A program made the translations under genes and the position numbers. Source: Bacilli bacterium (GTDB lineage: Bacteria > Bacillota > Bacilli > Paenibacillales > NBRC-103111). From it: a stretch of 64,000 nucleotides of DNA. The DNA is taken from positions 20,480 through 84,479 of the forward strand of contig JAQBPR010000191.1 in assembly GCA_028287395.1 (NCBI GenBank). Direction: 5' to 3'. Under the pieces are notes generated by a model. The model was not told the DNA's origin, made no database searches, and was given only the letters and a program-made list of their open reading frames with translations. Of the stretch, positions 2,663 to 30,249 are shown in pieces (the first letter of the stretch is position 1; each line of letters begins with the position of its first letter).

Positions 2663-2866
2663 AGAGTATGTTCAAAGAATGGTGACGTGGAGTAATGGGT
2701 GTGCTTGTAAAGTTTACGTGCCGACTTTGAAAATGAGTTTCTACCTTCGTCCATTCAAGAAACTCATTTTCAACTGAGGTAAAAGTTTTCGTAAGAAAAC
2801 TCACTTCGTAAGCATGCGCTTAAAGCACATTCATTACGCAACATAGCTATACTTTTTGAACATGTT
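2663..2866. repeat. Palindromic intergenic element copy A (about 204 bp)
   Basis: Ends agtATGTTCAAAg / ctTTTTGAACATgt; internal perfect inverted repeats 2727-2740/2760-2773 and 2784-2790/2795-2801; shares long blocks with 10705-10790 and with the reverse complement of 30108-30249. Confidence 0.88.
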
Positions 2867-2883
2867 ATTTTAGGAGGGATGAG

Positions 2884-3966
2884 ATGTTAGAGCGTTTTGG
2901 TCATGGCGGGGATGTTTGGACAGCGGAAGAAGCATTTGGCCGATCAAGGGAGCAGTTTATTGATTTTAGCGCGAATATGAATCCTTTTGGACCCCCTGCA
3001 ATAGTGAAAGAGATTATGCATCAATGCTGGCAGGATATGGCGCGTTATCCTGATCCTATTGTTAGAGAATTGCGCAGCAAGCTTGCCGAGGTTTATGGCA
3101 TTCCAGTGGAAAGTATTCTGGTAGGCAATGGTGCGGCAGAGCTGATTGATCTGATAGTTCGTGTTTTGCAGCCCCGTATTACAGGGTTGGCTAGACCCTC
3201 TTTTTCGGAATATGAAGAGGCGGTAGCGAAGACATCGGGTGGGGTATATGAGATTCCCACTTATGCAAGATATGGGTTTGAACTGCAGATGGATGATGTA
3301 TTGCAGGCGATGCAGCATTCGGATTTGTTGTTTCTCGGCAACCCGAACAATCCTACTGGACGGCTTATTTCATCCCCATTGCTGCGACAGATTATTTCGT
3401 CAGAGAAGCCGCTCATTGTCGATGAAGCGTTTATTGATTTTGTCCCCAACGAGGAGAAGAAAAGCCTTATTCGCAAAGCTGCCGTAACTAAAAATTTATT
3501 TGTCATTCGTTCGATGACGAAGTTTTATGCGATACCCGGCATTCGTCTTGGATTCATCGTAGCGCATCCAGAAGCAATTGCGCGTCTGCAGCTGCTGCAG
3601 GTACAATGGAGCGTTAATTATTTGGCGCAGCTTATAGGCAAGGCTGTTTTAGACGATGTCGAATATGCGGTGAAAACAAAGAAATGGCTGCATACAGAAC
3701 GTGCATGGCTTATTGCCGAATTACGGGCAATGGGATTAACTGTATTCCCCAGCGATACGAACTTTATTTTATTTTCTTTTTCAAAAGAAAGTGGCTTGGA
3801 TGTCAAAATCATGCAGCAGCGCTTAGGGTTACGCGGTATTCTCATACGCGACGCTTCACTTTTTAAAGGGCTGGATGCTTCCTATTGCCGCATTGCTGTG
3901 CGCTTAAGAGCTGATAATGAACGCTTGCTTGCAGAGCTTAGGCAAGGAGGAGCAGGGCATGGTTGA
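2884..3966 (+). CDS. cobD: Threonine-phosphate decarboxylase (PLP-dependent)
   Basis: HGGDVWTAEEAFG...DFSANMNPFGPP, class-I aminotransferase fold, between cobS and cbiP. Confidence 0.9.
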   Translation: MLERFGHGGDVWTAEEAFGRSREQFIDFSANMNPFGPPAIVKEIMHQCWQDMARYPDPIVRELRSKLAEVYGIPVESILVGNGAAELIDLIVRVLQPRITGLARPSFSEYEEAVAKTSGGVYEIPTYARYGFELQMDDVLQAMQHSDLLFLGNPNNPTGRLISSPLLRQIISSEKPLIVDEAFIDFVPNEEKKSLIRKAAVTKNLFVIRSMTKFYAIPGIRLGFIVAHPEAIARLQLLQVQWSVNYLAQLIGKAVLDDVEYAVKTKKWLHTERAWLIAELRAMGLTVFPSDTNFILFSFSKESGLDVKIMQQRLGLRGILIRDASLFKGLDASYCRIAVRLRADNERLLAELRQGGAGHG

Positions 3967-5524
3967 ATCTGTGAAAAAAGCGGCTCCACTGGCTGCAACC
4001 ATTATGGTGCAAGGAACATCCTCGGATGTCGGAAAAAGTATTATTACGGCAGCGCTTTGCCGAATTTTGCTGCAGGATGGTTGGCGCGTAGCTCCTTTTA
4101 AATCGCAAAACATGTCGCTTAATTCGTATGTAACTCCGGATGGCAAAGAAATTGGCCGTGCCCAAGGAATGCAAGCGGATGCTTGTCAGACGGCTGCGAC
4201 GACGGAGATGAATCCTATTTTGTTAAAGCCTAAGGGTGAAATGGTATCGCAGGTCATTGTCCATGGCAAGCCTTACAAGGATTTAGATTTTCGCACTTAT
4301 CGTGAAAGCTATTCGACAGAGGCGGAAATCATCGTCAAAGAAGCACTGCTAAGCTTACGCAGTCAATATGAAGTGATCGTGATCGAGGGAGCCGGAAGCC
4401 CTGCGGAGATAAATTTAAAGGATCGCGATATTGTCAATATGCGCTTAGCGGGTTGGGCTGATGCGCCGGTTATTCTGGTGGCTGATATTGATCGCGGCGG
4501 TGTTTTCGCTTCGATTGTCGGGACGATGGAAATTTTGCGACCGGAAGAGCGAGATAGGGTATGCGGTTTTGTGATTAACAAATTTCGCGGAGATATTGCG
4601 CTTTTGCAATCGGGGCTTGATTGGTTGGAAGAACGGACGGGCAAGCCGGTGCTGGGTGTAATTCCTTATTTGGCGAATTTACAATTGGAGGATGAGGATT
4701 CCGCTTCCTTAAATGCGAAAATAAATACCCAAATGAAGCTGGATCAATTAGACCCATCCATGCTGGATATTGCAGTCATTCGACTTCCACTTATAGCCAA
4801 CTTTACGGATTTTGACCCGCTGCTGGAAGAGGAGGACGTTACCCTTCGCTATGTTTCAACTCCGGCTGAGCTTGGCTGTCCGGATGTGATTATTTTGCCG
4901 GGAAGTAAAAATACGATCAACGATTTACTTTTTTTGCGAGAAAGTGGATTGGAGTTGGCCATTTTGCATTTTATCCAAAAGGGTGGGCGCTTGACCGGTA
5001 TTTGTGCGGGGTATCAAATGATGGGTGAAAGGCTGTTGGACCCGCTGTTGGTCGAATCGGATCGGCTGGAGTTGTCCGGGATGGGAGTGCTTCCGCTGGA
5101 AACTTCCTTTACTGCAGACAAAAAAACAGAGCGGGTTCAAGGCTATTCGCAACCAAATGAACAGGGTAGTTCCAATGACATAGAAGGCTACGAAATACAT
5201 ATGGGAGAAACCCGATTTACGGCAGTCGTAACGCATCCTTTTCGAATCCGTCTGCAGCGAACAGCAGAATCGTCAGAAGAATATCATCCCGATGGAGTGA
5301 TATCGGCCGACGGTAAGCTGTGGGGGACTTATATTCATGGCATTTTGCATAATGACGATTTTCGTCGAGACTGGCTGAACCAAATTCGTCTAGCCAAGGG
5401 ATGGCCGCCCATTGCAGGCACGCTGCAATTTCAACATCGCAGAGAAGAAGCTTTCAATCGCTTGGCAGAGCATGTACGAAATCATTTGGATATGACAAAA
5501 ATTTATGAGATGATAGAAGCTTAA
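3959..5524 (+). CDS. cbiP: Cobyric acid synthase (glutamine-hydrolysing); start taken at ATG 3959
   Basis: MVQGTSSDVGKS, FKSQNMSLNSYVT, GICAGYQMMGERLLDP motifs. Confidence 0.95.
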   Translation: MVESVKKAAPLAATIMVQGTSSDVGKSIITAALCRILLQDGWRVAPFKSQNMSLNSYVTPDGKEIGRAQGMQADACQTAATTEMNPILLKPKGEMVSQVIVHGKPYKDLDFRTYRESYSTEAEIIVKEALLSLRSQYEVIVIEGAGSPAEINLKDRDIVNMRLAGWADAPVILVADIDRGGVFASIVGTMEILRPEERDRVCGFVINKFRGDIALLQSGLDWLEERTGKPVLGVIPYLANLQLEDEDSASLNAKINTQMKLDQLDPSMLDIAVIRLPLIANFTDFDPLLEEEDVTLRYVSTPAELGCPDVIILPGSKNTINDLLFLRESGLELAILHFIQKGGRLTGICAGYQMMGERLLDPLLVESDRLELSGMGVLPLETSFTADKKTERVQGYSQPNEQGSSNDIEGYEIHMGETRFTAVVTHPFRIRLQRTAESSEEYHPDGVISADGKLWGTYIHGILHNDDFRRDWLNQIRLAKGWPPIAGTLQFQHRREEAFNRLAEHVRNHLDMTKIYEMIEA

Positions 5525-5539
5525 AAGGAGGCATTCGTA

Positions 5540-6109
5540 ATGAATATATATACGCGTACGGGAGATGCAGGACAGACTGGAATCATTGGCGGTCGCGTCG
5601 ATAAGGATGATATTCGCGTTGAAGCCTATGGCACAGTCGATGAATTAAATTGCTTTCTAGGTCAGGCGATGAGTCTGATGGAGGAAGCGAAATTTAACGA
5701 TTTACTCACTGATTTGCGGCAAATTCAACATGAATTATTTGATTGCGGCCATGATCTTGCTATCGCAAAAAGCGGCATACGCCCTTATAAGGTCTTCGCT
5801 GAAATGGTCGTTCATTTGGAAACCTTGATCGATCAATATGATGCGGAGACGGAGGATTTAACCCGATTTATTTTACCTGGCGGAAGCGCGGTTTCGTCGG
5901 CTTTACATATTTGTCGCACGGTATGTCGTCGCGCTGAGCGCAGAGTAGTTACTTTAGCTAGGACGCAGGAAATTAATGAAGAGGTGCGCAAATATTTAAA
6001 TCGCCTATCCGATTTATTTTTCACCATTGCCCGGAACGGTAATTCGCGAAATGGAATAGCTGATGTCGAATACGAACGCAGCGCTGAGGTATTTCGGAGA
6101 AAAAAATGA
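5540..6109 (+). CDS. Cob(I)yrinic acid a,c-diamide adenosyltransferase, PduO type
   Basis: MNIYTRTGDAGQTGIIGG...VEAYGTVDELN...RTVCRRAERRVV. Confidence 0.93.
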   Translation: MNIYTRTGDAGQTGIIGGRVDKDDIRVEAYGTVDELNCFLGQAMSLMEEAKFNDLLTDLRQIQHELFDCGHDLAIAKSGIRPYKVFAEMVVHLETLIDQYDAETEDLTRFILPGGSAVSSALHICRTVCRRAERRVVTLARTQEINEEVRKYLNRLSDLFFTIARNGNSRNGIADVEYERSAEVFRRKK

Positions 6110-7065
6110 ACTATTACGAACCCTTAGTCTATGAGATTCCGTCAGAGGAAGATGGCTGGATTTTAAAGACGATTTTACAAAAAAGGATGCACATCTCACG
6201 AACGCTGTTATCTCGTTTAAAGCAGACGGAGCAGGGAATTATGTTAAACGGTGAACGCCGCTATATCAGTGTGAGAGTAAACGTGGGCGACCTTGTCGAG
6301 GTTCGTATGCAGCAAGAGGAATCAACCGACATTTTAGCACAAAACATTCCGCTCGAGATCATTTTCGAGGATGAGCATTTACTTATTGTGAACAAAGCTG
6401 CAGGGATAATTGTGCACCCGACCCATGGGCACTACATGAATACCGTCGCGAACGCCGTTGTGTATCATTGGCAGCAAAATGGGCAAAATGTGCGTTTTCG
6501 CCCGATCCATCGACTCGATCAAGAAACGTCAGGCGTGCTCGCCATTGCTAAAAACCCTTTTGTGCATCAATGGGTATCGGAGCAAATGATCGCGCATCAA
6601 ACGAAAAAAGAATATATTGCCTTCGTTCATGGACTTGTGCAATCGGAACACGGTACAATAGACGCACCGATCGACCGTAATCCGGATCAGCCGCATTTGC
6701 GGATGATTATGGAAGCCGGCTATCCTTCCGTTACGCACTTCGAAGTGATAGAGCGTTATACGGCTTCAGATGTCACGCAAGTTAGATTATGGCTGGAGAC
6801 GGGGCGAACGCATCAAATTCGTGTACATATGAAGTCGCTCGGACACCCGTTGGTTGGCGATAAATTTTATGCTGATCCTGTTGAGGAAGCCATGACGCTG
6901 CCAACGGATCAAGCATCCATGATGATGCAGCGCCACGCGCTGCATGCAGAGAAGCTTGGATTGATCCATCCCGCTACGAAACAATGGGTGGAATATACCG
7001 CAAAGCTGCCAGATGATATGCAGGACTTTTTAAAGGCGACTGTATCTAAAGAAAGGAACGAATAA
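6106..7065 (+). CDS. RluA/RluD-family pseudouridine synthase
   Basis: S4-like N-terminus, RPIHRLDQETSGVLAIAK, LETGRTHQIRVHM. Confidence 0.93.
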   Translation: MNYYEPLVYEIPSEEDGWILKTILQKRMHISRTLLSRLKQTEQGIMLNGERRYISVRVNVGDLVEVRMQQEESTDILAQNIPLEIIFEDEHLLIVNKAAGIIVHPTHGHYMNTVANAVVYHWQQNGQNVRFRPIHRLDQETSGVLAIAKNPFVHQWVSEQMIAHQTKKEYIAFVHGLVQSEHGTIDAPIDRNPDQPHLRMIMEAGYPSVTHFEVIERYTASDVTQVRLWLETGRTHQIRVHMKSLGHPLVGDKFYADPVEEAMTLPTDQASMMMQRHALHAEKLGLIHPATKQWVEYTAKLPDDMQDFLKATVSKERNE

Positions 7066-7425
7066 ATGAGTTTTCAATTATACGGTTATTCTAAGTGCGG
7101 AACATGTCGAGACGCTTTAAAATCGTTACGGGCAAAAGGACATGAACTGCAAATGATAGAGTTATTTGAAACACCGCCCTCCGAAAATCAATTAAAGCAA
7201 TGGATTCAAGCCAGCGGCTTGCCTATTCAAAGGTTTTTTAACGTTTCTGGCGAAGTATACAGGGAAATGAATTTAAAAGATAAACTGCCTTCGATGAGCT
7301 TTGATGAACAAATCACATTGCTTGCTTCAAATGGAAGATTAATTAAACGACCGATTGCAGCAGAAGGCAATAAGGTAACTGTGGGCTTTAAAGAAGCAGA
7401 ATACAAAGAGGTTTGGGGGATTTAA
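7066..7425 (+). CDS. ArsC/Spx-family thioredoxin-fold protein
   Basis: YGYSKCGTCRDALKSL CXXC motif, RPIAAEGNKVTVGF C-terminus. Confidence 0.88.
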   Translation: MSFQLYGYSKCGTCRDALKSLRAKGHELQMIELFETPPSENQLKQWIQASGLPIQRFFNVSGEVYREMNLKDKLPSMSFDEQITLLASNGRLIKRPIAAEGNKVTVGFKEAEYKEVWGI

Positions 7426-7428
7426 CGA

Positions 7429-8508
7429 TTGGCTGGTCCGCGAATAGCAGGAAATAAAAACAATCCTTGGTGGTATTTGGGAACGATTGGCGCTTTTTTA
7501 TTAGCCAAGTTTAAACTTATTATATCCTTACTGAAGCTAGGCACATTTGGGGGAACGCTGTTAAGTATGGCGATTTCCATCTGGGCATATGCTTTAATAG
7601 CTCCCTATCAATTAGCAATCGGTGTGGTTTTACTTATATTTGTCCATGAAATGGGGCATGTGATTGCGGCCAAACAAAAAGGATTGCCGACGAGCGCACC
7701 CATTTTCATTCCTTTAATTGGGGCAATGATCAATTTAAAACGCCATCCGCGTGATGCTGAGACAGAAGCTTATATCGCATTTGGTGGTCCGCTTTTAGGT
7801 ACTGCGGGTGCATTGCTTGTATTTGCTATGGGCTGGTATTGGGATTCTGCTTTATTTATTTATGTCGCATTTGTAGGATTTTTTATTAATCTAATTAATT
7901 TATTGCCGATTCATCCTTTGGATGGCGGTCGTATTTCAGTGGCTGTCAGTCGTTGGCTTTGGCTTGTCGGTTTGACGGCAGGGCTTGTGATTATTGTTTA
8001 TTTCAAGCTTTATTTGATGTTCATTTTCTGGATTTTGTTTGCATGGGATTTATATCAAAAATTTGTTCGTAAAAAGGGAAAGCTTAAACCGGAAACCACT
8101 TGGGCCACTTACGAGGTGCCCGTTGAGCCTTTACTAAATAATGGAGTTTTCATACCCGGACCCGAGCATCGTCGTGAATTGGATTTTCAAACGTATTCCG
8201 ATTTGAATGGAAAGCAAAAGGTTTTGATGATATGGGAAGAGATTGGTTTGCGAGCACAGCTCATCTTGCCAGAACAAGGCATCATTGAAAAGACCTTCAT
8301 CACTAACATAGAACGGATTTCCAAAGAAAAGGGCCCCTTTTTGTTGATTCGCTGTCAGGTCAATTATTATGTTCATCAGAACGATGCTTATTATGAAGTT
8401 TCGCCCAAGGTGAGATGGATATTCGGCTTTGCTTATGGTCTGTTGGCATTGCTGCTGATTTATATGCTGGTCCTTTCGACAAATATGGGCGTATCGATTC
8501 ATTTATAG
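7429..8508 (+). CDS. Site-2 protease family (M50) membrane metalloprotease; TTG start
   Basis: HEMGHVIAA zinc motif, LLPIHPLDGGRI motif, multiple TM segments. Confidence 0.88.
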   Translation: MAGPRIAGNKNNPWWYLGTIGAFLLAKFKLIISLLKLGTFGGTLLSMAISIWAYALIAPYQLAIGVVLLIFVHEMGHVIAAKQKGLPTSAPIFIPLIGAMINLKRHPRDAETEAYIAFGGPLLGTAGALLVFAMGWYWDSALFIYVAFVGFFINLINLLPIHPLDGGRISVAVSRWLWLVGLTAGLVIIVYFKLYLMFIFWILFAWDLYQKFVRKKGKLKPETTWATYEVPVEPLLNNGVFIPGPEHRRELDFQTYSDLNGKQKVLMIWEEIGLRAQLILPEQGIIEKTFITNIERISKEKGPFLLIRCQVNYYVHQNDAYYEVSPKVRWIFGFAYGLLALLLIYMLVLSTNMGVSIHL

Positions 8509-8535
8509 AATGAAATAGGAGAGCTGGGATGGGCA

Positions 8536-9723
8536 ATGGCAAGGGTAGCTTCCAAGCGACTTTCGCAGCTGGGTTCGGCGATTTTTGCCGAGGTAAGCGA
8601 ATGGAAGGAGCAGGTGAACAAACAGGGAATGGATGTCATCGACTTAGGCATCGGCAGTCCCGATCAGCCTCCGTCACCGAAGGTGATAGAAGCATTGGTT
8701 CAAGCGGTCAGCAAACCGCATAATTACGGGTATCCTACATCGGAAGGCAGCCTGCAATTTCGTCAAACAGTAGCTCGCTGGTATCAATACCGCTTTGGAG
8801 TTGAGCTAGATCCGAATGATGAAATTCTTACGCTCATGGGATCACAGGACGGATTGGCTCATTTGGCGATGGCCATTACGGATCCAGGTGACCTGGTACT
8901 TGTTCCTGATCCGGGCTATCCGATTTATGCGGCGAGCCTAGTCCTTGCAGGTGTGACACCTTACACCATGCCTTTGCGCGTGGAAAATAATTTTCTGCCC
9001 GACTTAGATCGTATTCCAGAGGCTATTGCCAAACAAGCCAAATTTATGCTGCTTAACTATCCGAGTAATCCGTTATCAGCTGTTGCGGATCGGGCATTTT
9101 TTGAGCGATTAGTGGCGTATGCCCGTAAACATCATATTATTATTGTACATGATTTGGCCTATTCGGAAATGACCTTCGATGGTTTCCTGCCTGTGAGCAT
9201 CTTACAAATTCCCGACGCCAAGGAAATTGCCGTAGAATTTCATTCCTTGTCGAAAAGCTTTAACATGGCAGGCTGCCGCTTGGCCTTCATGGTAGGAAAT
9301 TCAGAAGTGGTACAGGCGTTGCAAACTTTGAAATCGAATATCGACTATGGCGTTTTCATTGCTATTCAGGAAGCAGGTATAGCGGCTTTAGAAGAGGATA
9401 TGACACACGATGACTCCGTTGCAAAGCAATATGAGCTTAGAAGGAATTTGTTCGTGGAAGGATTACAAAAAATCGGCTGGGACATTCCGCTGCCGAAAGC
9501 TACGATGTTTGTTTGGGCACCGATACCCAAAGGCTGGACTTCTCGACAAATTGCCCGGGAAATTTTATTTTCGACTGGCGTTGTAGTTATTCCTGGTGAT
9601 GCTTTTGGATCTGAGGGAGAAGGGTATGTACGGATTGCGCTTGTACAAAGTGAAGAAAGATTGGCGGAAGCTATCTCACGTATCGGCAGGTTTTTTGCAG
9701 AGAAGGTTAATGTTCTAAAGTAG
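8536..9723 (+). CDS. Class I/II aminotransferase (LL-diaminopimelate aminotransferase-like)
   Basis: IDLGIGSPDQPP, VPDPGYPIY, HSLSKSFNMAGCRLAF. Confidence 0.88.
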   Translation: MARVASKRLSQLGSAIFAEVSEWKEQVNKQGMDVIDLGIGSPDQPPSPKVIEALVQAVSKPHNYGYPTSEGSLQFRQTVARWYQYRFGVELDPNDEILTLMGSQDGLAHLAMAITDPGDLVLVPDPGYPIYAASLVLAGVTPYTMPLRVENNFLPDLDRIPEAIAKQAKFMLLNYPSNPLSAVADRAFFERLVAYARKHHIIIVHDLAYSEMTFDGFLPVSILQIPDAKEIAVEFHSLSKSFNMAGCRLAFMVGNSEVVQALQTLKSNIDYGVFIAIQEAGIAALEEDMTHDDSVAKQYELRRNLFVEGLQKIGWDIPLPKATMFVWAPIPKGWTSRQIAREILFSTGVVVIPGDAFGSEGEGYVRIALVQSEERLAEAISRIGRFFAEKVNVLK

Positions 9724-9747
9724 TTTAAGGAGAGTTGGGACGATCTG

Positions 9748-10689
9748 ATGCGCAAAATACAAGTGTCATCTCGCAAAAGCAAGCTCATTATTCATTGCCT
9801 CTGGGCTGGCTTGATTATAAGCTTATTAACAGGCTGCAGCACAACTTCTTCTAGCGAACCGATTCATTCGCCTTTCGTTACTTCGCTACCCTCTATCATA
9901 CCGACTGTAGAGACTCCTTCAGAAGAAATGGGAGTTCGAGCCGGAATAATTATTCAACAAACCCCTCAGCCTCTTCCCGTTACAGCTGCATTGCAAACGA
10001 TTCAGCCTGCTCAATTAGCTAAACCGAAGCAATGGGGAGAGCAAGTGGATGGGGTCAAAAGAAGGTTGGATACGAATGATAAAGTAGTCGCGTTAACTTT
10101 TGATGCTTGTGGTGGAGTAGGCAGCGATGGTTACGATAAAAAATTAATCGACTTTTTAATTAAGGAAAAGATTCATGCCACACTTTTCATTAACGGCAGA
10201 TGGATCACAGCTAATCCTGATATTTTTCTTGAATTGGCTGCTAATCCGCTTTTTGAAATCGAGAATCACGGAACCGAGCACAAGCCTTTATCTGTAACAG
10301 GCCGATCTGCCTATGGAATAAAAGGTACCTCAAGTGTAGAAGAAGTGAAAAATGAAGTATTATTGAATGCACAAAAAATCGAGAAATTAACCGGACGAAA
10401 ACCGAAGTTTTTTCGCTCAGGAACCGCTTATTATGATGAAATTGCGATTCAAGTCGTCGAGGATTTAGGAGAAGAAGCCGTCAACTTTGATGTGCTGGGC
10501 GATGCGGGAGCGACTTATACTAAGGATCAGATTGTTAAAGCCTTGAAAAGTGTAAAACCCGGTTCCATCGTGATCAGTCATATGAACCATCCAGAAAAGC
10601 ATACAGCGGAAGGAATCGAGGCAGCCGTACCTATGCTTCAAAAAGAGGGGTACAGCTTTGTCAAGGTGGAGGACTATTCGCTTAAGTAA
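9748..10689 (+). CDS. Polysaccharide deacetylase family lipoprotein
   Basis: Lipobox LLTGCS; ALTFDACGG and ENHGTEHKP NodB-like motifs. Confidence 0.85.
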   Translation: MRKIQVSSRKSKLIIHCLWAGLIISLLTGCSTTSSSEPIHSPFVTSLPSIIPTVETPSEEMGVRAGIIIQQTPQPLPVTAALQTIQPAQLAKPKQWGEQVDGVKRRLDTNDKVVALTFDACGGVGSDGYDKKLIDFLIKEKIHATLFINGRWITANPDIFLELAANPLFEIENHGTEHKPLSVTGRSAYGIKGTSSVEEVKNEVLLNAQKIEKLTGRKPKFFRSGTAYYDEIAIQVVEDLGEEAVNFDVLGDAGATYTKDQIVKALKSVKPGSIVISHMNHPEKHTAEGIEAAVPMLQKEGYSFVKVEDYSLK

Positions 10690-10704
10690 AGCCTAATTAC
10701 TTTA

Positions 10705-10790
10705 AGAGTGCGTTCAAAAAATGGCGACGAGGAGTAATGAGTATGCTTGTAGAAGTTTATGTGCCAACTTTGAAAATGAGTTTCCACCTT
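10705..10790. repeat. Palindromic element copy B, left half only
   Basis: agagtgcgttcaaaaaatggcgacgaggagtaatgagtatgcttgtagaagtttatgtgccaactttgaaaatgagtttccacc closely matches left half of copy A; right half absent. Confidence 0.8.
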
Positions 10791-10838
10791 TAATTTTTGA
10801 AATGGTTCATTAATGAGCTGGCGAAAGGGAGAAGAAAA

Positions 10839-11417
10839 ATGAATATTGAACATACTATTCGCAATAGAAGAAGTATCGGCTTGGTCAAATCTGACCCACT
10901 GGAAAAGTTGCTGATTGAAAAATTATTGGATGCCGCTGTACACGCACCGAATCATCATTGTACGGAGCCATGGCGTTTTTTTGTGATGACAGGCAGCGGA
11001 AGAGATGTTTTGGGACGTGCCTATGCATTAATCGCAAGTGAGTCAATGCAAGACCCAACAACAGAAGAAAATCAGATGATCTTAAAAAAGCAGCATGGCA
11101 AGGCGTTTCGCGCGCCTGTAGTCATAACTGTTGCTGCAGTCCCTTTGGATTCACCTAAAGTGGAGAAGAAAGAAGAGCTTGCGGCAGTGCATGCAGCAGT
11201 GCAGAATATACTGCTTCAAGCCCATGCACTTGGCCTTGGCGCAATTTGGCGAACTGGAGAACCTGCATATCATCGGGAAATGAAGAAGGCATTTGGGCTG
11301 ACTGACGAGGCTGAAGTAGTCGGATTCATTTATGTGGGGTATCCTTTAAACCAACCAGCTTCGCGGGTAAGTCCCAGCTATGCCGAGAAAACAATTTGGT
11401 TGGATGGATCAAAATAA
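10839..11417 (+). CDS. Nitroreductase family protein
   Basis: IRNRRSIGLVKSDP, AAVHAPNHHCTEPWRFFVM, GLGAIWRTGEPAYH. Confidence 0.88.
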   Translation: MNIEHTIRNRRSIGLVKSDPLEKLLIEKLLDAAVHAPNHHCTEPWRFFVMTGSGRDVLGRAYALIASESMQDPTTEENQMILKKQHGKAFRAPVVITVAAVPLDSPKVEKKEELAAVHAAVQNILLQAHALGLGAIWRTGEPAYHREMKKAFGLTDEAEVVGFIYVGYPLNQPASRVSPSYAEKTIWLDGSK

Positions 11418-11486
11418 ATATGAATTTTTATTTGCTGCAATGCTTGTATGCTATAATATGATAAAAAATTCAGGAGTGTAAAATCA

Positions 11487-12359: not shown

Positions 12360-12406
12360 AAGATCTATCCATATAATGACCGTGAAGTAAAAGGAGGAAT
12401 AGAACG

Positions 12407-12931: not shown

Positions 12932-13070
12932 GTCCTTTTTGGACTGCAGTGAAATAGGTTACTTCCACAATATTTAGAGGCTCTCTTTAATAAAAAAGCC
13001 CTCGATGGGATTCTCGAGGTGGTGATATCTAAAAGATTGTTTTTTTTGGAACCAGTTTCGATATCATGAA

Positions 13071-14000: not shown

Positions 14001-14039
14001 GTCAGAAGAGAGCAATTTGACTTTGAGAGGAGCAATTTC

Positions 14040-20839: not shown

Positions 20840-20943
20840 CCCTATTTGGAAGATGTTGTGCTAAAATAATAGTGAGAGTAAACGTTCATTTTAGAGACCC
20901 TTGTTACTTTGAATAATCATTGCAGAAAGGGTTGGTTTTAAAT

Positions 20944-22710
20944 ATGTTTAAATGGTTTGTAAAAATGAATTTGATTCAAAAATTAATTGTTTTTTTTATT
21001 TTTCTGATAGTTATGCCTATTTTACTTGTTGATTGGCTTGTTTCGGCAAAGGTAGCAACGATCTCTGAAGATCAAATGGGGAATACTTTATTTCAATTGG
21101 TCAAGACAAGTCATTTAACCTTGGATCGGGATATCACATCTATGGATGGTGTCACAGAGAAATTAATGATTGCGGATGCAACGCAAAAAATGTTTGATTT
21201 GACTCCCTTATCAGAATACGAGAGATTTCAATTATATAAATCGTTAGATTCCTTAATAGCTGCCTACTCCACAAATTACAATTTTTCAATTTTTATGCCC
21301 GAGCTTACAGAACGCTATCCATTTGCGCCAACCTCCGAAGCACAGCAAAAGGGGGTGTTTTATGCGGCTAACATAGCAAATATGGCTTGGTTTCAAGATG
21401 CGATTGAGGCAAGAGGCAGTGGTATTACAAGGACCATTAATCAGCTTGGGTTTAATCCGACTCATCTAAAAACATTAGCTTATCTCCGGAAAATGAATAA
21501 TATCTCAGGTTGGGATTCTTTAATTGGCGTTCTTGTTGTGACGGGTTTAGATTCTTTATTGGAGAAAGATTTGAATTCGCTTAAAATTCCGAAAGACAGT
21601 GTGATCGCGCTTGTGAATAATAATAATGAAATATTGACCAGTGCGTCTCATCTTGAAATAGGGGCAAAATTCGAGCTTCCATCGCCAGTTTCAAATTCGT
21701 TGGAGGGCGTTTACACGGAGAAAGAAAAGGGAAGTTCTTGGTTATATGCATTCCACACAAGCTCAGTTAGCGATACAAAATTACTTTTTAAAATCCCTGT
21801 AAGTTCTATCATCGGCGAGCATTTAGCAGTACGGCAATTGGTTAATTATTTAATGATTGCATACTTTTTGATTTTAATCGTTTTAAGTATTTATTTTTTC
21901 AGATATATTTTAAACCCATTATCCAGACTTGCCAGATTTACTCGTGCCTATGAACCGGGAAGACCTTTAACGATTGAGTATCATTTGGATCGAAAAGATG
22001 AGATTGGTCTATTAAACAACGCATTCATTGATATGACTAAACGTTTAAATCAAACGATTCACGATAAATATGTCTTGGAATTAAAACAAAAAGAAGTGGA
22101 ATTAACCATTCTTCATTCACAGATAAACCCTCATTTGCTTTACAACACACTTGAATCGATCTATTGGCGGACCACCATTGAAGGAAACTCGGAATCAGCC
22201 GAAATGATTCATGATCTTTCGATGTTAATGCGTATTGGGTTGAGCCGCGGTAAAACACTCATTCAAATTTCAGAGGAACTTACCCACGTTGAGGCTTATT
22301 TAAGACTCCAATTAAAAAGATATAATTATTCCTTTAAAATAAATTGGGATATTGAAGAGGATGCTAAATCATTTTTGATTCCCAAAGTGGTCCTGCAGCC
22401 TTTAGCGGAAAATGCGATTATTCATGGCATTCGCAATATGGAGCAAGAAGGGGAATTATGGATAATAATCAAAACTTTCGATGGTAAAGTTGAGATTGTC
22501 GTTGAAGATAACGGTTACAAAGCAGCTGATATGAGCAAATTAAACGCCATTTTGGATGGAAGTGAACGCAATACAGGCTACGGTATCCTAAATGTGAATA
22601 AAAGAATTAAACTTCATTTTGGCAATAGTTTTGGCTTAAGCTATGAAATAAGGCCTGAAGGTGGAACCAAAGCAATGATTATTATACCGGCCACAACGGA
22701 AGAAACTTAA
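20944..22710 (+). CDS. Sensor histidine kinase, YesM family (ORF track starts at 20920)
   Basis: HSQINPHLLYNTLESIYW H-box, HAMP, HATPase_c; pairs with downstream AraC-type regulator. Confidence 0.93.
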   Translation: MFKWFVKMNLIQKLIVFFIFLIVMPILLVDWLVSAKVATISEDQMGNTLFQLVKTSHLTLDRDITSMDGVTEKLMIADATQKMFDLTPLSEYERFQLYKSLDSLIAAYSTNYNFSIFMPELTERYPFAPTSEAQQKGVFYAANIANMAWFQDAIEARGSGITRTINQLGFNPTHLKTLAYLRKMNNISGWDSLIGVLVVTGLDSLLEKDLNSLKIPKDSVIALVNNNNEILTSASHLEIGAKFELPSPVSNSLEGVYTEKEKGSSWLYAFHTSSVSDTKLLFKIPVSSIIGEHLAVRQLVNYLMIAYFLILIVLSIYFFRYILNPLSRLARFTRAYEPGRPLTIEYHLDRKDEIGLLNNAFIDMTKRLNQTIHDKYVLELKQKEVELTILHSQINPHLLYNTLESIYWRTTIEGNSESAEMIHDLSMLMRIGLSRGKTLIQISEELTHVEAYLRLQLKRYNYSFKINWDIEEDAKSFLIPKVVLQPLAENAIIHGIRNMEQEGELWIIIKTFDGKVEIVVEDNGYKAADMSKLNAILDGSERNTGYGILNVNKRIKLHFGNSFGLSYEIRPEGGTKAMIIIPATTEET

Positions 22711-22735
22711 TTATACTTAGAGTGGGGGAAGCAGA

Positions 22736-24145
22736 TTGTATAACATTTTGGTTGTAGATGATGAACCGATGATTTGTAAAGGTGTGGCTTCCATTCTGCT
22801 TAGTGCTGATATCGCGATTACAGAAATATTTATTGCCCATAACGGATTTGAAGCGCTTGATTTTATTCGTTTGGAAAAGATAGATTTGATTTTAACCGAT
22901 ATTCAAATGGAGCAAATGAATGGAATTGAATTAATTGAAACCATCTTTGTAGAAAATCCAGGTATCCCCATTATTGTTTTATCTGCACATGGGGAATTTG
23001 AATATGCGCAAAAAGCACTAAGGTTTGGGGTTAAGGAATATATCATAAAACCGGTCAATCCTCTAGAACTCATTCAAGTCACAAAAGCACTATTATTAGA
23101 ACGAGAAACGCGATTACGTTCTTTAACGGATGCTACGTTTAATCATAAATTTTCTTTTGAAGACATGGCTACCAATAGAAACTATATCCTCAATGAATTG
23201 GTATCAGAAGGGATCAATGAATCTGAAATCGATGAAATATTTACCTATTTAGGCTATCGTTTCGATGGACCTTATTATTGTATGTTAGTGATTAGACTCG
23301 ATTTAACAAAAGCAGGACTATTTGAAAATGATATTACATCTTTTCGTGACCGAAATCTTTTAAAATATGCCTCGCTGAATGTAATCGAGGAAACGTTAGA
23401 GAAATGGGAAAGCATTGTTTTTTATAGCAGCAGCAATACAATTTCTGTTGTTTTGCAGTTTTCAGAGGAAGAAATGAACAGCTCCACCCGTCTGAATCAA
23501 CAAACTATGATCGCTCAGCTGCTGCATAATCATCTGTTAACCTTTATTAATATGAAAAGCGTCATCGGCATCAGCCGCATTAAAGCGGGAATAAAGAGCT
23601 GGTTGGAAATTTATCAAGAAGCAACTGAAGCGATCCGTTGGAGCGAAATTCATCAAGATCATAACGTTTTCTATATTGAAGATTTCGGAAAACATGGAGA
23701 AGCTCCCTTGAAATGGGGTGGCCGCAATGCCGAACCTATTATAGAAACGCCCGTAAATCAGAGATTGCAAAGTATTGGCCATGTCATATCTAAATTAGAT
23801 GATATGATAGCTAGCCAAATTGATGAGGATAACAATGGCTTTATTCATAGCACCATACAGTACATAGAGAAAAATTTTCGGCAAAAAGGATTGAAATTAC
23901 AAGATATTGCCGATTCTGTATATCTCAGTCCCAATTATTTGAGTTATTTGTTTAAAAAGATCGTAGGAATCAATCTTTGGGATTACGTGACCAAGCTAAG
24001 AATGGAAGAAGGGAAACGGCTCATTCTGACAACAGATAAACGCAGATATGAGATTTCCGATGAGATTGGTTATGAATCTCCGGAGCATTTCAGTAAAATT
24101 TTTAAAAAGCACTTTGGGATCAATCCATCTGAAATTAAAAACTAA
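22736..24145 (+). CDS. Response regulator with AraC-type HTH output, YesN family (non-ATG start)
   Basis: NILVVDDEPMI receiver, C-terminal YLSPNYLSYLFKKIVG...GYESPEHFSKIFKKHFGINPSE. Confidence 0.94.
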   Translation: MYNILVVDDEPMICKGVASILLSADIAITEIFIAHNGFEALDFIRLEKIDLILTDIQMEQMNGIELIETIFVENPGIPIIVLSAHGEFEYAQKALRFGVKEYIIKPVNPLELIQVTKALLLERETRLRSLTDATFNHKFSFEDMATNRNYILNELVSEGINESEIDEIFTYLGYRFDGPYYCMLVIRLDLTKAGLFENDITSFRDRNLLKYASLNVIEETLEKWESIVFYSSSNTISVVLQFSEEEMNSSTRLNQQTMIAQLLHNHLLTFINMKSVIGISRIKAGIKSWLEIYQEATEAIRWSEIHQDHNVFYIEDFGKHGEAPLKWGGRNAEPIIETPVNQRLQSIGHVISKLDDMIASQIDEDNNGFIHSTIQYIEKNFRQKGLKLQDIADSVYLSPNYLSYLFKKIVGINLWDYVTKLRMEEGKRLILTTDKRRYEISDEIGYESPEHFSKIFKKHFGINPSEIKN

Positions 24146-24170
24146 CGTAACGAAATATATAATAATTAAA

Positions 24171-24224
24171 CACATGCTTATCATAATATCGCACATCGTA
24201 ATACAATCGGATGGCTTTTATAAT
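24171..24224 (+). promoter_or_regulatory. Putative AraC-type activator-dependent promoter, copy 2 (upstream of solute-binding protein)
   Basis: CACAT at 24171 and 24192 (21 bp apart), TATAAT at 24219. Confidence 0.6.
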
Positions 24225-24265
24225 AAAAATGTAGCAAATTTTTATAAATTGAGAGGGGAAAGAAC

Positions 24266-25717
24266 ATGAGAAACGTAAAAGTAAAAGGCTTAATCGTAAG
24301 TTTTCTCGCATTGAGTGTTGTACTGGCAGGTTGTGGAAGTACAGCCAAGACGGGTACGTCTACAGATTCACCATCAGCAACACCAGCAGGAACAACGGCG
24401 GCAACAACCGCAGCAACACCGGTACCGGTACCAGCAGCGAAAGTAAGTATTGAATATTATACTTACCCAGCAGATCAAACCGAAAATAATAAGACGCTTG
24501 ATGCTACTGCCGCAAGATTTATGGCGAAGTATCCAAATGTTACGATGTCAAATAAAAACAATTGGCAATATAGAAATGATGAAATTGCAGTCAAGATGGC
24601 GGCAAATAGTGCGCCAACCGAATTTACCACTTGGGCTACAGAAGGCAAATTATTGTCAGACCGCAAATGGATTGCTGATCTAACCGATTATTTAGCTGCT
24701 TGGCCAAACACTAAAGATTTAAATCAAACGGCTTTGAAACCGTTTGTTATCGGTGGAAAAACATATGCAGTTCCGATTGATGCGTATTCAATGACAATCA
24801 CGGTTAATAAAAAGCTTTTTGCAGCTAAAGGAGTTGCATTGCCGCCATTGGATTGGACCTGGGATGATTTCACGGCAGCAGCGAAAGCAGTTAATGATCC
24901 AGCCAATAATGTTGCAGGATTTATCCCAATGGGTAAAGGAAGCGAAGCAGGATGGAACTGGACGAACTTCTTATATGCAGCAGGTGGAGATGTAGAAACC
25001 GTTGCGGATGGTAAAGTTACCGCAATATTTAACTCAGACGCAGGCGTTAAAGCAATGACATTGTATAAAAATTTAAATGATGCCGGCGTTCTTCCGAAAA
25101 ACTGGGCATTAAATTATACTGATGCACTGAATTGGTTCAACCAAGGTCGTGGCGCGATGGTTATGTGTGGAAGTGGTAATGCTCTGAATGGTGCGATTAA
25201 CCAAGGTGGAATTAAAGCAGATGATTTAGCCATCTATCCGATTCCGTCCATGACTAAAGGTGGAAAACATACTGGAGTACTCGGCGGAAATTATAAGGCT
25301 GTCAATGGAATGGCAACCAAAGATCAACAACAAGCAGCATTCAATTGGGTTACAAACGAATATTTTACAGACACGTATATTGATTCAATCTCCAAACAAA
25401 TTGATGCACAGAAAGCTGACGGTAATAAAACATATGTTCCACAGTTGATTAACTATTGGGATGATAACTCGGAATATGGAAAAAAAGTGCAAGCGATGTT
25501 TGCTAAGCATGACAATGTATATAAATATGCACCTGAATTAAGTGCTTTATTGGATGGAAAAACAGAAGCGACTTATGAGACACAAGCTTATTACGCTGAA
25601 GTAGCCAATGTAATTCAAAAAGTATTTACAACTAAAGGTGTAGATGTGAAAAAACTTTTGGATGATGCAGCGGCTAAAGTACAAAAAGATAAATTCGATA
25701 AAGTTAAGATTAATTAA
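24266..25717 (+). CDS. Sugar ABC transporter extracellular solute-binding lipoprotein
   Basis: Lipobox VLAGCG, family-1 SBP pattern. Confidence 0.93.
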   Translation: MRNVKVKGLIVSFLALSVVLAGCGSTAKTGTSTDSPSATPAGTTAATTAATPVPVPAAKVSIEYYTYPADQTENNKTLDATAARFMAKYPNVTMSNKNNWQYRNDEIAVKMAANSAPTEFTTWATEGKLLSDRKWIADLTDYLAAWPNTKDLNQTALKPFVIGGKTYAVPIDAYSMTITVNKKLFAAKGVALPPLDWTWDDFTAAAKAVNDPANNVAGFIPMGKGSEAGWNWTNFLYAAGGDVETVADGKVTAIFNSDAGVKAMTLYKNLNDAGVLPKNWALNYTDALNWFNQGRGAMVMCGSGNALNGAINQGGIKADDLAIYPIPSMTKGGKHTGVLGGNYKAVNGMATKDQQQAAFNWVTNEYFTDTYIDSISKQIDAQKADGNKTYVPQLINYWDDNSEYGKKVQAMFAKHDNVYKYAPELSALLDGKTEATYETQAYYAEVANVIQKVFTTKGVDVKKLLDDAAAKVQKDKFDKVKIN

Positions 25718-25740
25718 TAATCCTAGTAATCTGTTGATAG

Positions 25741-25790
25741 ACCCGGGTCTATGCTGAATCCAGTATTAGGCCCGGTTTCTTTATAAAAAG
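25741..25790 (+). terminator. Intercistronic hairpin between SBP and permease genes
   Basis: ccgggtcta...taggcccgg stem followed by tttcttta. Confidence 0.6.
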
Positions 25791-25836
25791 TACGAATAGT
25801 TGTATTTTAAAAAGACATAGTGGGGAGTGGAAATCC

Positions 25837-26739
25837 ATGGAGGTACAGCTCACACCTCGAATTGTTAAACCAGGTTTATTAAGGAAAATGCGTTGGTATT
25901 ACTTGGGTCTGCTGTTTTTAATTCCAGAAATAGTCATCTTTTTTATATTTTTATGGCTTCCGATTTTTAAAGGAATCAGATATAGTTTTTTTTATATTAA
26001 TTTTGTTGATAAAGATGCTTTTGTTGGGTTACAGAACTATATTGATGTGATAAGCAACGAGAATTTTGTGAAAGCGATAACAAATACATTGCAATATATG
26101 TCATTAACAGTAGTGTTAGGATTTTGGGTTCCCATTGTTATGGCTATTTGCGTTTCTGAATTAAAGTGGTTTCAAGGACCAGCCCGAGTGATCGGTTATT
26201 TGCCAAGTATCATTCCTGCAATTGTGCTTTATGGGATGTGGCTGTGGTTTTATGATACTGCAGGTCCAATTAATTCCTTTTTAAAATCTTTAGGCATATC
26301 GGGCATTGACTTTTTTAGCAAGAAAATGTCGATGGTTTCTCTTGTCTTTTTGGATACATGGCAAAATTTCGGGAGCGCTACCTTAATATATATTGCCGGA
26401 CTTACCACTATTCCTAAGGATTTGTATGAAGCAGCAGAATTAGACGGTGCTGGTGTGTGGAATCGCATTCGCTATATCACGCTTCCCAGTATAAAAAATT
26501 TAATTTTACTGCTGCTTTTGCTGCAATTAATTGCCACTTCCCAAAGCTTCCAGCCGCAATTGGTGATGTTTGGCGGTGGGCCGGATAACGCTACATTAAC
26601 TTACCTTTTAATGACTACCCGGATGGCATTTAACGATGCGGATTTCGGAAAAGCCAGTGCTATGGGCTCTATGATGTTTATAGTCTTGGTTCTCGTCTCA
26701 CTGATCACCATAAAATTCCGTAGAGGTGAGGCATCATGA
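25837..26739 (+). CDS. Sugar ABC transporter permease (UgpA/LplB type)
   Basis: TM pattern and EAAELDGAGVWNRIRYITLPSI EAA motif. Confidence 0.93.
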   Translation: MEVQLTPRIVKPGLLRKMRWYYLGLLFLIPEIVIFFIFLWLPIFKGIRYSFFYINFVDKDAFVGLQNYIDVISNENFVKAITNTLQYMSLTVVLGFWVPIVMAICVSELKWFQGPARVIGYLPSIIPAIVLYGMWLWFYDTAGPINSFLKSLGISGIDFFSKKMSMVSLVFLDTWQNFGSATLIYIAGLTTIPKDLYEAAELDGAGVWNRIRYITLPSIKNLILLLLLLQLIATSQSFQPQLVMFGGGPDNATLTYLLMTTRMAFNDADFGKASAMGSMMFIVLVLVSLITIKFRRGEAS

Positions 26740-27611
26740 AATCAACCGTGGATCGTGCTATAATGTCCCGCTATGATTTTCGGAAATTTAGTGTTAAGGT
26801 GATTTACTCCTTAATGGTTTTGGTCATAATCCTCGTCTCCATTTCGATGCTCTATCCTTTTGTGACCACCTTCTTAGGCTCGCTAAAAACGAAAGAAGAA
26901 TTTTTTTCCTTTCCTCCGAAATTTTTTCCGCAACATTTTTTATGGAAGAACTACGGAGAATCCTTGAAGTATCTGGACATTCCGGTTTATTTTAAAAATA
27001 CGCTGTTCATTTTTATAGGGAATGTATTCTTTTCAATAATTTTCATAGGAATGGCGGCTTTTAGTTTGTCCCACTTGAAATTGCCGATGAAAAAATGGAT
27101 TACGTTCTATTTTCTTTCCACATTATTGATTCCACCTGCAACGTATATTATTCCTAATTTTTTAAACCTCAAAAGCTTAGGTTTGATTAATACGTATTGG
27201 GCATTTTGGCTGCCTGCAGGAGCCAATGCATTCTTTTTATTGTTATTGAAAAACTTTTTTGATGGCATCCACAAGGAGCTTTTTGAAGCGGCCAGAATTG
27301 ATGGTTCTTCGGAATTAAGGTGTTTTTTTGGCATAGCAGTCCCATTATCTATCCCGATTATAATTACACTTATTTTACTGTCATTCGCAGCAACATGGAA
27401 TGATTTTTACTGGTCCTCATTAGTGATGAGAGGGGACAATCTTCCACTAGCCGCTGCAATTTATACTAAAGTCATTGGTGTGGGTTCGACCATAACGTGG
27501 AATATACGTTTTGCTATCCTTACTATGACATTGTTCCCGCCACTTCTTGTTTTTTTCTTCTTTTCAAGATACATTATTAGTGGATTAAGTGTTGGAGCTG
27601 TTAAAGGGTGA
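26736..27611 (+). CDS. Sugar ABC transporter permease (UgpE/MalG type)
   Basis: EAARIDGSSELRCFFGIAVPLSIP EAA motif; 4-bp overlap with preceding gene. Confidence 0.93.
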   Translation: MKSTVDRAIMSRYDFRKFSVKVIYSLMVLVIILVSISMLYPFVTTFLGSLKTKEEFFSFPPKFFPQHFLWKNYGESLKYLDIPVYFKNTLFIFIGNVFFSIIFIGMAAFSLSHLKLPMKKWITFYFLSTLLIPPATYIIPNFLNLKSLGLINTYWAFWLPAGANAFFLLLLKNFFDGIHKELFEAARIDGSSELRCFFGIAVPLSIPIIITLILLSFAATWNDFYWSSLVMRGDNLPLAAAIYTKVIGVGSTITWNIRFAILTMTLFPPLLVFFFFSRYIISGLSVGAVKG

Positions 27612-27640
27612 TTTTCATCATACTTTTGGATATAGGAGTA

Positions 27641-27667
27641 CTGCCCCTCGTGCATCACGAGGGGCAG
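27641..27667. other. Perfect 12-bp GC-rich hairpin without T-tract
   Basis: ctgcccctcgtg-cat-cacgaggggcag. Confidence 0.85.
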
Positions 27668-27697
27668 AATTCGTAAATACATTAAAGATCAGAAAGG

Positions 27698-28780
27698 ATG
27701 CTGCCTGTAATGAATAATGATTTTTTTAGGAATTCCTATTATACTCTCAATGGAAATAGGGATCCCTTTTTCGATCATCCCAATTGTTTTAGTAAAAATT
27801 TATACCTTGTATTGAAAAATAGATTTCACGAAAGCTTTGATCCTTATCATTTTTTTGTAGAAGACATAACACAGGTTGCCATATTGAAAGCAGACAATAG
27901 AATTCTTTTTGAAGATGTTACTTATAGTCAGCCTGATAATATCCCGTGCAATCGGTATGAGCTTCATTCGGATAGTAAAGCATCTTCTCTAGTTACAGAT
28001 TTACTGGATGACGGCTGCATGGTACTTGTTCATTCGGTGTTTGAAAAATTGCCGATCTTTACATTTTATGATCCTGGTTTCGACTCGGATAAATGGACAC
28101 CCGCACACGTTATACTTATTGTCGGGCATGATAATGACTATTTTTATTATGTGGATGAGCCAAGGCTGCTTAATCATCACCACAAGGTTTGTTTAGAAAA
28201 CGGGGATGTTGGGTATATCGAGAAAAAAGTGATGGAGAGTATTTTCTCCGAACACATCGTCTGTCATACGATAAAGCCTACCGATTTAGAGACCTTGATT
28301 GAATCACGTAAATCGAAAGAATTTGCCCCTATCCAAGCATCTATTGCAAACTACAACAAAAGCAGCTGCATTTTCAATGAACAAGCAGGATGTACGGGTC
28401 TAGACCGATTAGAAAATAATGCAATAGTATATTTTGGTCGGGAAGCCATTCAGAAAACGATCCAATTATGTTTAGATCCTACGCATACATATGCTATAGA
28501 AAACTTTTCCTTTTGGTCGGATCAAGATTTGCTCAGAAGAGGGATAGGCAGAAGGAAAATACTAAAAGACAGTTTATTGCGATATACCCATGATAGCGAA
28601 ATTATCGAAAATATAGATCAAAGTATATTTAGTTGGCTAAACATACGAAATAATCTAATAAAAAGGAAATACAAGAAAAAAACTGATTTAGATGTGGACA
28701 TGATCCCATATTTTGAAGCTGCTCTTCAGTTGGAAGATCGTTTGCAAGATAACCTTAGTTTATTGCTATCATCCCTCTAA
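27698..28780 (+). CDS. BtrH_N / C39-like papain-fold protein (tentative)
   Basis: DHPNCFSKNLYLVL (candidate Cys) and AHVILIVGHDNDYFYYVDEP resemble BtrH N-terminal domain proteins. Confidence 0.55.
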   Translation: MLPVMNNDFFRNSYYTLNGNRDPFFDHPNCFSKNLYLVLKNRFHESFDPYHFFVEDITQVAILKADNRILFEDVTYSQPDNIPCNRYELHSDSKASSLVTDLLDDGCMVLVHSVFEKLPIFTFYDPGFDSDKWTPAHVILIVGHDNDYFYYVDEPRLLNHHHKVCLENGDVGYIEKKVMESIFSEHIVCHTIKPTDLETLIESRKSKEFAPIQASIANYNKSSCIFNEQAGCTGLDRLENNAIVYFGREAIQKTIQLCLDPTHTYAIENFSFWSDQDLLRRGIGRRKILKDSLLRYTHDSEIIENIDQSIFSWLNIRNNLIKRKYKKKTDLDVDMIPYFEAALQLEDRLQDNLSLLLSSL

Positions 28781-28781
28781 G

Positions 28782-29441
28782 TTAAACCAATTCGTTTTTA
28801 ATCGCATAAATAACCAATTGAACACGATCTCTAAGCTTTAATTTTTTAAAAAGACCCGAAATAGTGTTCTTTACAGTTCCTTCCGACATATAAAGTATTT
28901 TTGCTATTTCTCTGTTTTCTTTTCCCGCAACAATATGACGAATAATATTTATTTCTCTCTCCATGATGACAACATCCAAGTGGCTCTGAGGTATTTTACC
29001 ATTCAAATGGATATACTCGGATACGCTGTGAAAAGCATCTTTATGCATCACATTAAGCCCTAGAGCAACTGTTTTTACCGTCATAATCAATTCTTCAGGA
29101 TGGATATCTTTTAACATATACCCATCTGCTCCGCAATTCATCGCTTTGATAATATTCGCTGAATCTTTGCTGCCCGTTAAAATAATCAACTTGATTGAAC
29201 TAAATTTATTTTTAATAAGTGCAGCTCCTAAAGTTCCATCACGAACAGACATGATAATATCCATTAATATCACATCCGGATGTAATTCCTTACATAATTC
29301 TAATGCCTCCTCTACGTTAGCCGCATAACCTACGACTTTAATTTCTTCATCGCCTTCAAGGATAAGTTTGATGCCTGCATTCATAATTTTTTGGTCATCG
29401 GCCAACACCACTTTAATCATAAATTCCTCCGAATTATTCAT
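28782..29441 (-). CDS. Response regulator, NarL/LuxR family; no adjacent kinase
   Basis: VVLADDQKIM, VILMDII, ILTGS, YMLKD receiver residues conserved; LuxR HTH ENREIAKILYMSEGTVKNTI. Confidence 0.93.
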   Translation of the reverse strand: MNNSEEFMIKVVLADDQKIMNAGIKLILEGDEEIKVVGYAANVEEALELCKELHPDVILMDIIMSVRDGTLGAALIKNKFSSIKLIILTGSKDSANIIKAMNCGADGYMLKDIHPEELIMTVKTVALGLNVMHKDAFHSVSEYIHLNGKIPQSHLDVVIMEREINIIRHIVAGKENREIAKILYMSEGTVKNTISGLFKKLKLRDRVQLVIYAIKNELV

Positions 29442-29453
29442 TCATGCGCTGGT

Positions 29454-30089
29454 TTACTGTATCATCTCAAATAAACCATTAATCACCCTATCGGCTTTTT
29501 GCAATGTTTCTTTCTTTCCAATCCCGATAACTCTCATACCCGCGAGCTTACCTGCCTCTACGCCTGCTTCAGCATCTTCAAAGACAATACAATCCTCTGG
29601 CTGGAGTTCGATTCCTTTGGCGCCCAGTAAGAAAACCTCTGGATCAGGCTTGGCTTTGCTTGTCTGATTCCCATCAATGATCACATCAAATAGCTTGCTT
29701 ATTTTTAAGTTTTCCAAAATCATCGGCGCATTTTTACTTGCAGAACCCAGGGCAATTTTGATGCCATTGTTCCTTAAGTGAATTAAGTATTCTTTAGCGC
29801 CGGGTAAAATTTCGGATTCATCCATATGCTTGATATACTCGACATACCAATTGTTTTTTTTCTCCGCAAAAGCAAGCTTTTTCGCTTCGCTTAATTCCAG
29901 CTTGCCAATGTCGAGCAATATTTCCAAGGAACGTGTTCTACTAACGCCCTTTAACCTTTCATTATGCTCCTCAGTAAATTCAAATCCTAACTCCTGTGCC
30001 AGTCTTGCCCATGCAAGATAATGATATTTGGCAGTATCCACGATAACGCCATCCAAATCAAAGATAGCTCCTTTAAAGCTTCCAATCAT
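29454..30089 (-). CDS. pgmB: Beta-phosphoglucomutase
   Basis: AIFDLDGVIVDTAKYHYLAWARLAQELG, LGSASKNAP, VFEDAEAGVEAGK; adjacent to GH65 phosphorylases. Confidence 0.93.
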   Translation of the reverse strand: MIGSFKGAIFDLDGVIVDTAKYHYLAWARLAQELGFEFTEEHNERLKGVSRTRSLEILLDIGKLELSEAKKLAFAEKKNNWYVEYIKHMDESEILPGAKEYLIHLRNNGIKIALGSASKNAPMILENLKISKLFDVIIDGNQTSKAKPDPEVFLLGAKGIELQPEDCIVFEDAEAGVEAGKLAGMRVIGIGKKETLQKADRVINGLFEMIQ

Positions 30090-30107
30090 CCGAATTCCTC
30101 CTAATTT

Positions 30108-30249
30108 AGAATGTGTTCAAAAAGTATAGCTTTGTTGCGTAATAAATGTGCTTTAAGCGCATGCTTACGAAGCCAGTTTTGCTAAAGCAAAACTTTCGAC
30201 TTTACAAGCACACCCATTACTCCTCGTCGCATTTTTTTGAACACACTCT
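30108..30249. repeat. Palindromic element copy C (142 bp, opposite orientation to A)
   Basis: Reverse complement matches copy A at both ends; ends AGAATGTGTTCAAAAAG / TTTTTTTGAACACACTCT; hairpin agttttgc-taaa-gcaaaact at 30175-30194. Confidence 0.9.

Follow-up and report, generated by a model that had tools for sequence, protein, structure and literature searches.

Intergenic elements in the window

In the window, by which we mean the whole 64,000-nucleotide stretch of DNA analysed here, the gap between cobS and cobD was occupied by a complete copy (copy A, 2663 to 2866, plus strand) of an intergenic element with the module order LE-M1-M2-RE. LE (2663 to 2713) opened with the terminal repeat AGAGTATGTTCAAAGA, followed by GGAGTAATGGGTGTGCTT, the 5' side of an outer stem, P1. 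M1 (2714 to 2779) carried a conserved AGTTTACG loop and a long inner hairpin, the hairpin module M2 (2781 to 2821) stood in the opposite orientation to the free-standing M2 hairpins described below, and RE (2822 to 2866) contributed the 3' side of P1 and then the second terminal repeat, all on the plus strand. The AGGAGG ribosome-binding site of cobD (2872 to 2877, plus strand) lay directly behind the element. Copy C, complete as LE-M2-RE without M1, was found on the minus strand (30109 to 30249) in the gap between a GH65 gene and pgmB, with the AGGAGG ribosome-binding site of pgmB just behind it (30097 to 30102, minus strand). Copy B (10705 to 10791, plus strand) was truncated to LE and the 5' half of M1, without RE, and had a polysaccharide deacetylase gene and a nitroreductase gene as neighbors.

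The preliminary description of this DNA had reported copies A, B and C, quoted the sequence blocks that they share and placed A and C in these two gene gaps, and we recovered all of this at the places given. It had overlooked a divergent fourth copy (41490 to 41650, plus strand), a member of subfamily IV with the full structured core and the ends GGCTGTTGAGAAACC and GGTTTCTCAACAGCC, and a fragment (43725 to 43755, plus strand) identified by a module profile match as a subfamily III left end. Copy C had been called inverted; relative to the genes, A and C share one orientation, LE to RE running along the direction of transcription in both. A SAM riboswitch was recognized by an Rfam match at window positions 55480 to 55600, upstream of metA.

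A modular family in the parent genome

The parent genome (G000) was a 4.56-Mb draft in 268 contigs, and the genome set included a single relative of the same genus (G001, one contig of 8,101,785 bp). A BLAST search with copy A as the query returned 105 matches in the parent genome, many of them at 88 to 97% identity, and the end sequence AGAGTGTGTTYAAWAA (at most one mismatch) occurred at 81 sites, compared with 1 for the reversed pattern. Chance is excluded by these counts together with the RNA folding z-scores of copies A (-8.5) and C (-7.4). Profile HMMs for the four modules, run over 1.18 Mb (the window plus L196 to L255), identified 55 element loci, a number that does not give a representative density because the contigs were picked for holding copies.

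The unit was laid out as LE-(M2)-(M1)-(M2)-RE, with the modules in brackets optional, spanned about 140 to 290 bp and contained no transposase gene. LE measured 51 nt, M1 about 66, M2 about 42 and RE about 46. The commonest combination was LE-M1-RE (n = 17), followed by LE-M2-RE (n = 6, including copy C), LE-M2-M1-M2-RE (n = 4, and a fifth in which RE is doubled), LE-M1-M2-RE (n = 3, including copy A) and LE-M2-M1-RE (n = 3), alongside fragments such as copy B, so that the differences among A, B and C were those of interior modules coming and going. At least five subfamilies were distinguished by end sequence (AGAGTGTGTTCAAAAA, AGAGTGTGTTTAATAAG, AGAGCCTGTTTAAAAAG, GGCTGTTGAGAAACC and a fifth), and subfamily II had near-identical copies at contig ends, a mark of recent amplification. 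As the same combinations recurred inside subfamilies with near-identical LE and RE, M1 and M2 must have been gained and lost at fixed junctions. Where M2 stood between LE and M1, it replaced the middle of the AGTTTACG motif, and between M1 and RE it replaced CTGG; since the AGTTTACG loop is thereby interrupted in some copies, full core function cannot belong to all of them. Near one composite element, at L032:830-1064 (minus strand), Rfam models identified a T-box leader.

Ends, target duplications, and a candidate mobilizer

The elements ended in 16-bp inverted repeats (AGAGTGTGTTCAAAAA), and 15 of the 29 copies with both ends were flanked by an exact 3-bp target duplication, compared with 3.5 expected from random re-pairing of the flanks; none of 5000 such shuffles reached 15. 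No signal was obtained from the same 29 copies for duplications of 2 or of 4 to 9 bp. The TA duplication that had been read at copy C was therefore not upheld, and both A and C were among the copies in which no exact 3-bp duplication is left. The same kind of ends occurred in G022 and G075 (another family of the order), where 5 of the 10 elements read had exact 3-bp duplications, and they were abundant in G024. At the gene level, among relatives of other genera for which the locus was read in the right orientation, several (e.g., L448, L454, and L462) had a short cobS-cobD gap without an element.

A transposase with matching inverted repeats was sought and was found in an IS1182-like insertion sequence of a relative (G015), with a relic in the parent genome. 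The G015 insertion sequence was 1630 bp long, had the ends AGAGSCTGTTCAAAAAG, was flanked by TAT on both sides and carried a frameshifted transposase gene; its terminal repeats and 3-bp duplication match the MITE ends. The gene product matched DUF772 at 40 bits (Pfam cut-off, 23.1), and IS1182 was the best NCBIfam model, at 60 bits on the broken reading frame against a cut-off of 270. A related copy, 84% identical to the G015 element, was present in G007, and the relic in the parent genome, truncated, lay at C107:660-863 with the end AGAGCGTGTTCAAAAAA. The only full-length IS1182 gene of the parent genome was situated on a short contig (C230), on which no matching ends were seen. We also considered whether AGAGTGTGTATAAAAA repeats on contig C50 delimit an autonomous transposon of 10 kb and rejected this, since the region contained ordinary genes and remnants of the elements. 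Copies A, B and C are modular MITEs, and the matching insertion sequence ends, the 3-bp duplication and the relic in the genome provide them with a candidate mobilizer, for which, judging from these sequence matches, an IS1182-type transposase is the leading candidate.

The core is maintained as sense-strand RNA

M1 together with the inner portions of LE and RE (P1) formed a structured core of ~135 nt that could be aligned across genera at near-invariant AGTTTACG, TTTGAA and GGA motifs. In the predicted structure the core forms a long hairpin, in which a conserved internal loop sets GGAAAGUUUACG against CUGGAAG; this loop was near-invariant across the order. Among 18 sequences, 14 of 29 base pairs changed on both sides, with a covariation score of 0.349 compared to 0.194 after shuffling. 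When 65 copies were aligned, 25 of the 29 pairs changed on both sides, 96.1% of cells paired, and the score rose to 0.569 (0.192 shuffled, at most 0.109 slid). With a covariance model, R1, the core was recovered in 80 of the 105 family genomes and in 138 of the 201 Paenibacillales genomes; of about 110 Bacilli genomes outside the order, one gave a weak match. Several genomes contained at least 31 copies. Within the window, R1 matched copy A at 2680 to 2809 with 83.6 bits, the fourth copy with 83.3 bits, copy C with 38.8 bits and copy B, weakly, with 24.7 bits. The core was kept where the end sequences differ (subfamilies I to V). One site, in the gap that separates yabO from the sporulation gene yabP, is orthologous among ten genomes of two genera, with flanks that could still be aligned; there, 18 of 34 pairs changed on both sides. 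Rfam 15 covariance models returned no family for the element, and elsewhere only the SAM riboswitch and T-box; the family is thus covered by no existing Rfam entry, and its many further copies in the genome bear out the preliminary description's view of a dispersed family.

In a DNA palindrome, G.T and A.C mismatches accrue equally, whereas a helix formed by RNA can accommodate G.U, but not A.C, when read on its own strand. G.U pairs outnumbered A.C pairs in the core by 46 to 8 in the MAFFT alignment, by 115 to 19 in the model-fitted alignment and, at the yabP site, by 9 to 2, whereas the terminal repeats of these elements had 24 and 22 (core versus ends, Fisher p = 4e-4). These counts come from related sequences, and the use of a sense-strand structure prediction introduces a mild bias towards G.U. 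Because the core is G.U-biased and the end repeats are symmetric, the core has been selected as sense-strand RNA, and its base pairs are kept on that strand. One and the same element thus provides an internal control, in which the end repeats evolve symmetrically and the core keeps wobble mainly on the messenger strand, making the idea of mobile elements that carry functional mRNA structure directly testable.

The core was also found in a different setting in G142 (L293 to L312), where about 18 near-identical copies were each placed at the 3' end of a longer repeat, whose 5' side was cut short to varying extents and whose terminator-like 3' terminus (GGACGCCGCAAGGCGTTTT) was constant. This suggests that another type of mobile element uses the same core; as to an IS91-like origin of these repeats, Pfam recognized none of the upstream reading frames.

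Placement and possible function

Elements between co-directional genes of the parent genome, as delimited by a simple gene caller, were sense in 25 cases and antisense in 2 (p = 6e-6), and those of relatives were sense in 17 and antisense in 1. The end of the element preceded the next start codon by a median of 42 nt. We consider it probable that these are mobile intercistronic mRNA elements, in which MITE ends carry a sense-strand RNA core that acts on the downstream cistron as a processing site or a 5' stabilizer. The preliminary description had offered a MITE or a structured RNA or processing element. It was right about the MITE, on the evidence of the ends, the target duplications and the matching insertion sequence, and about the RNA, given the strand-specific covariation and the orientation bias; the last step, a processing or stabilizing role, we infer.

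Under such a mechanism, an IS1182-type transposase would act in trans on the ends and place the element into intergenic gaps, and the copies that survive would be those lying in sense orientation inside transcribed gaps. The core, co-transcribed with the operon, would fold into its long hairpin, leaving some tens of nucleotides between its end and the start codon that follows. The polycistronic message might then be cut at the element, the 5' stem might keep RNase J from degrading the downstream cistron in the 5'-to-3' direction, or both; after an internal cut, every cistron behind such a hairpin would start with a protected 5' end of its own. The cut may be attracted by the long stem, in the way that Correia elements attract RNase III.

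Alternatively, the core might be an independent regulatory RNA, with a protein- or ligand-binding loop, that the MITE carries as payload, in which case it would mark a regulon rather than serve as a general stability element. Throughout the order the internal loop (GGAAAGUUUACG/CUGGAAG) is near-invariant, and in two genera the position before yabP is conserved, as such an RNA would lead one to expect, but in the copies seen the downstream genes (cobD, pgmB, nitroreductase, yabP, and others) have no common theme, and M2 breaks the loop in some copies, and we regard this reading as rather doubtful. MITEs are usually seen as DNA parasites, their folding a by-product, and a purely selfish MITE would owe its structure to DNA palindromes that transposition requires or at least tolerates. 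Genuine terminal repeats, 3-bp duplications, a matching insertion sequence and the recent amplification of subfamily II all fit this, and the sense bias could have arisen passively, from the purging of harmful antisense copies. A palindrome, however, predicts equal numbers of G.U and A.C pairs, which is what the ends show (24:22) and the core does not (46:8), and the core was kept despite divergent ends and also in front of yabP, where the site is old and fixed, making a purely selfish origin of the structure unlikely. That the element is a cis-acting terminator, attenuator or promoter for the downstream gene, as sense placement just before genes might suggest, is highly improbable, given that neither A nor C has a terminator-like or sigma-70-like site on either strand or a T-run directly behind the hairpin, and that the element lies inside operons needing read-through (cobS-cobD). 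Mobile intercistronic elements with an RNA core acting on the downstream cistron thus remain our preferred explanation.

Relation to known repeat families

We found no earlier description of such repeats in Paenibacillus in a literature search whose coverage left out most subscription journals. The BOX elements of Streptococcus pneumoniae (boxA-boxBn-boxC) have MITE-like ends and are transcribed within operons (PMC3049150). They resemble the present elements in architecture only, as modular composites with constant ends and optional inner hairpins, but their proposed mobilizer is ISSpn2 (PMC3049150) rather than an IS1182-like element, and the 3-bp duplication measured here, the sense-strand wobble in the core and the order-wide spread set the present family apart. 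Among the repeats bcr1 to bcr18 of the Bacillus cereus group, bcr1 to bcr3 are MITE-like and bcr10 and bcr18 are predicted RNA elements (PMC3446304). The likeness is one of ecology, both being intergenic, structured and transcribed in untranslated regions and operon gaps, whereas here, outside the B. cereus group, MITE ends and an RNA-selected core are united in one element. Correia elements, or NEMIS, of Neisseria are MITEs folded from their terminal repeats, whose transcripts are cut by RNase III (PMC2649163, PMC10969869); the folding of the MITE is alike, but the modular interior and strand-specific core belong to the present elements.

Free-standing M2 hairpins

M2 also occurred outside the elements, where it read AAGCNNATGCTTACGAAGNNAGTTTTGCNNNNGCAAAACTTTTAGGAGG on the other strand and abutted Shine-Dalgarno sites. 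The last M2 unit was followed by a Shine-Dalgarno site and then a start codon in 91 of 102 cases, and two others stood directly before 5S rRNA genes; in a second set, a start codon lay behind 30 of 31 M2 hairpins, with compensatory changes in the stems. A pattern scan of named genomes yielded, among the matches listed, only Paenibacillus and close kin, and Bacilli of other orders essentially lacked the motif. In the parent genome M2 preceded remA, rpmI, dapA, hslU, atpD, accC, gltD, and spoVAC, with single or tandem free-standing copies at, for example, L217:4253-4330, L222:3451-3486, L225:9731-9802, and L238:13432-15991. In composite elements M2 was inverted relative to the free-standing reading in the parent genome and not inverted in G075 and G022. 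Since M2 stands free in a Shine-Dalgarno context and its orientation differs among composites, it is probably a unit in its own right that was acquired by the MITEs.

In Gram-positive bacteria, 5' stem-loops and bound ribosomes guard mRNA from the 5' exonuclease RNase J1; the Bacillus 5' stabilizers known from such work are the aprE 5' stem-loop plus ribosome-binding site and STAB-SD (cited in PMC3997798). Free-standing M2 is like these in being a stem-loop close to a Shine-Dalgarno site, and differs in being dispersed and often tandem, as opposed to a single leader, with a putative stabilizing role; M2 alone before a Shine-Dalgarno site could be the minimal form of the device proposed for the elements. 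As a second undescribed order-wide feature, it bears on gene annotation and expression in Paenibacillus. We tentatively propose, as a possibility somewhat short of probable, that Paenibacillales as a whole possess a transposable, modular cis-acting RNA, composed of a MITE with an undescribed mRNA structure and of M2 as a minimal ribosome-binding-site hairpin, set gap by gap into operons, where it would tune how stable each cistron is or how it is processed. In enterobacteria, REP hairpins protect 3' ends, and a system of this kind would be their mirror image on the 5' side, in Paenibacillus and related soil bacteria, a large and industrially used order.

M2 hairpins directly before the 5S rRNA gene were seen in rRNA operons at L157 and L172 (Paenibacillus) and at L064. 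A subtype of M2 had a longer apical insert, roughly GCG.AG....TTCA.GGAAG....GCTC, inside a GTTTT/AAAAC stem, and was found at L098, L107, L127, L133, L139, L148, L165, L175, L190, and other loci; this insert is possibly a second structured motif.
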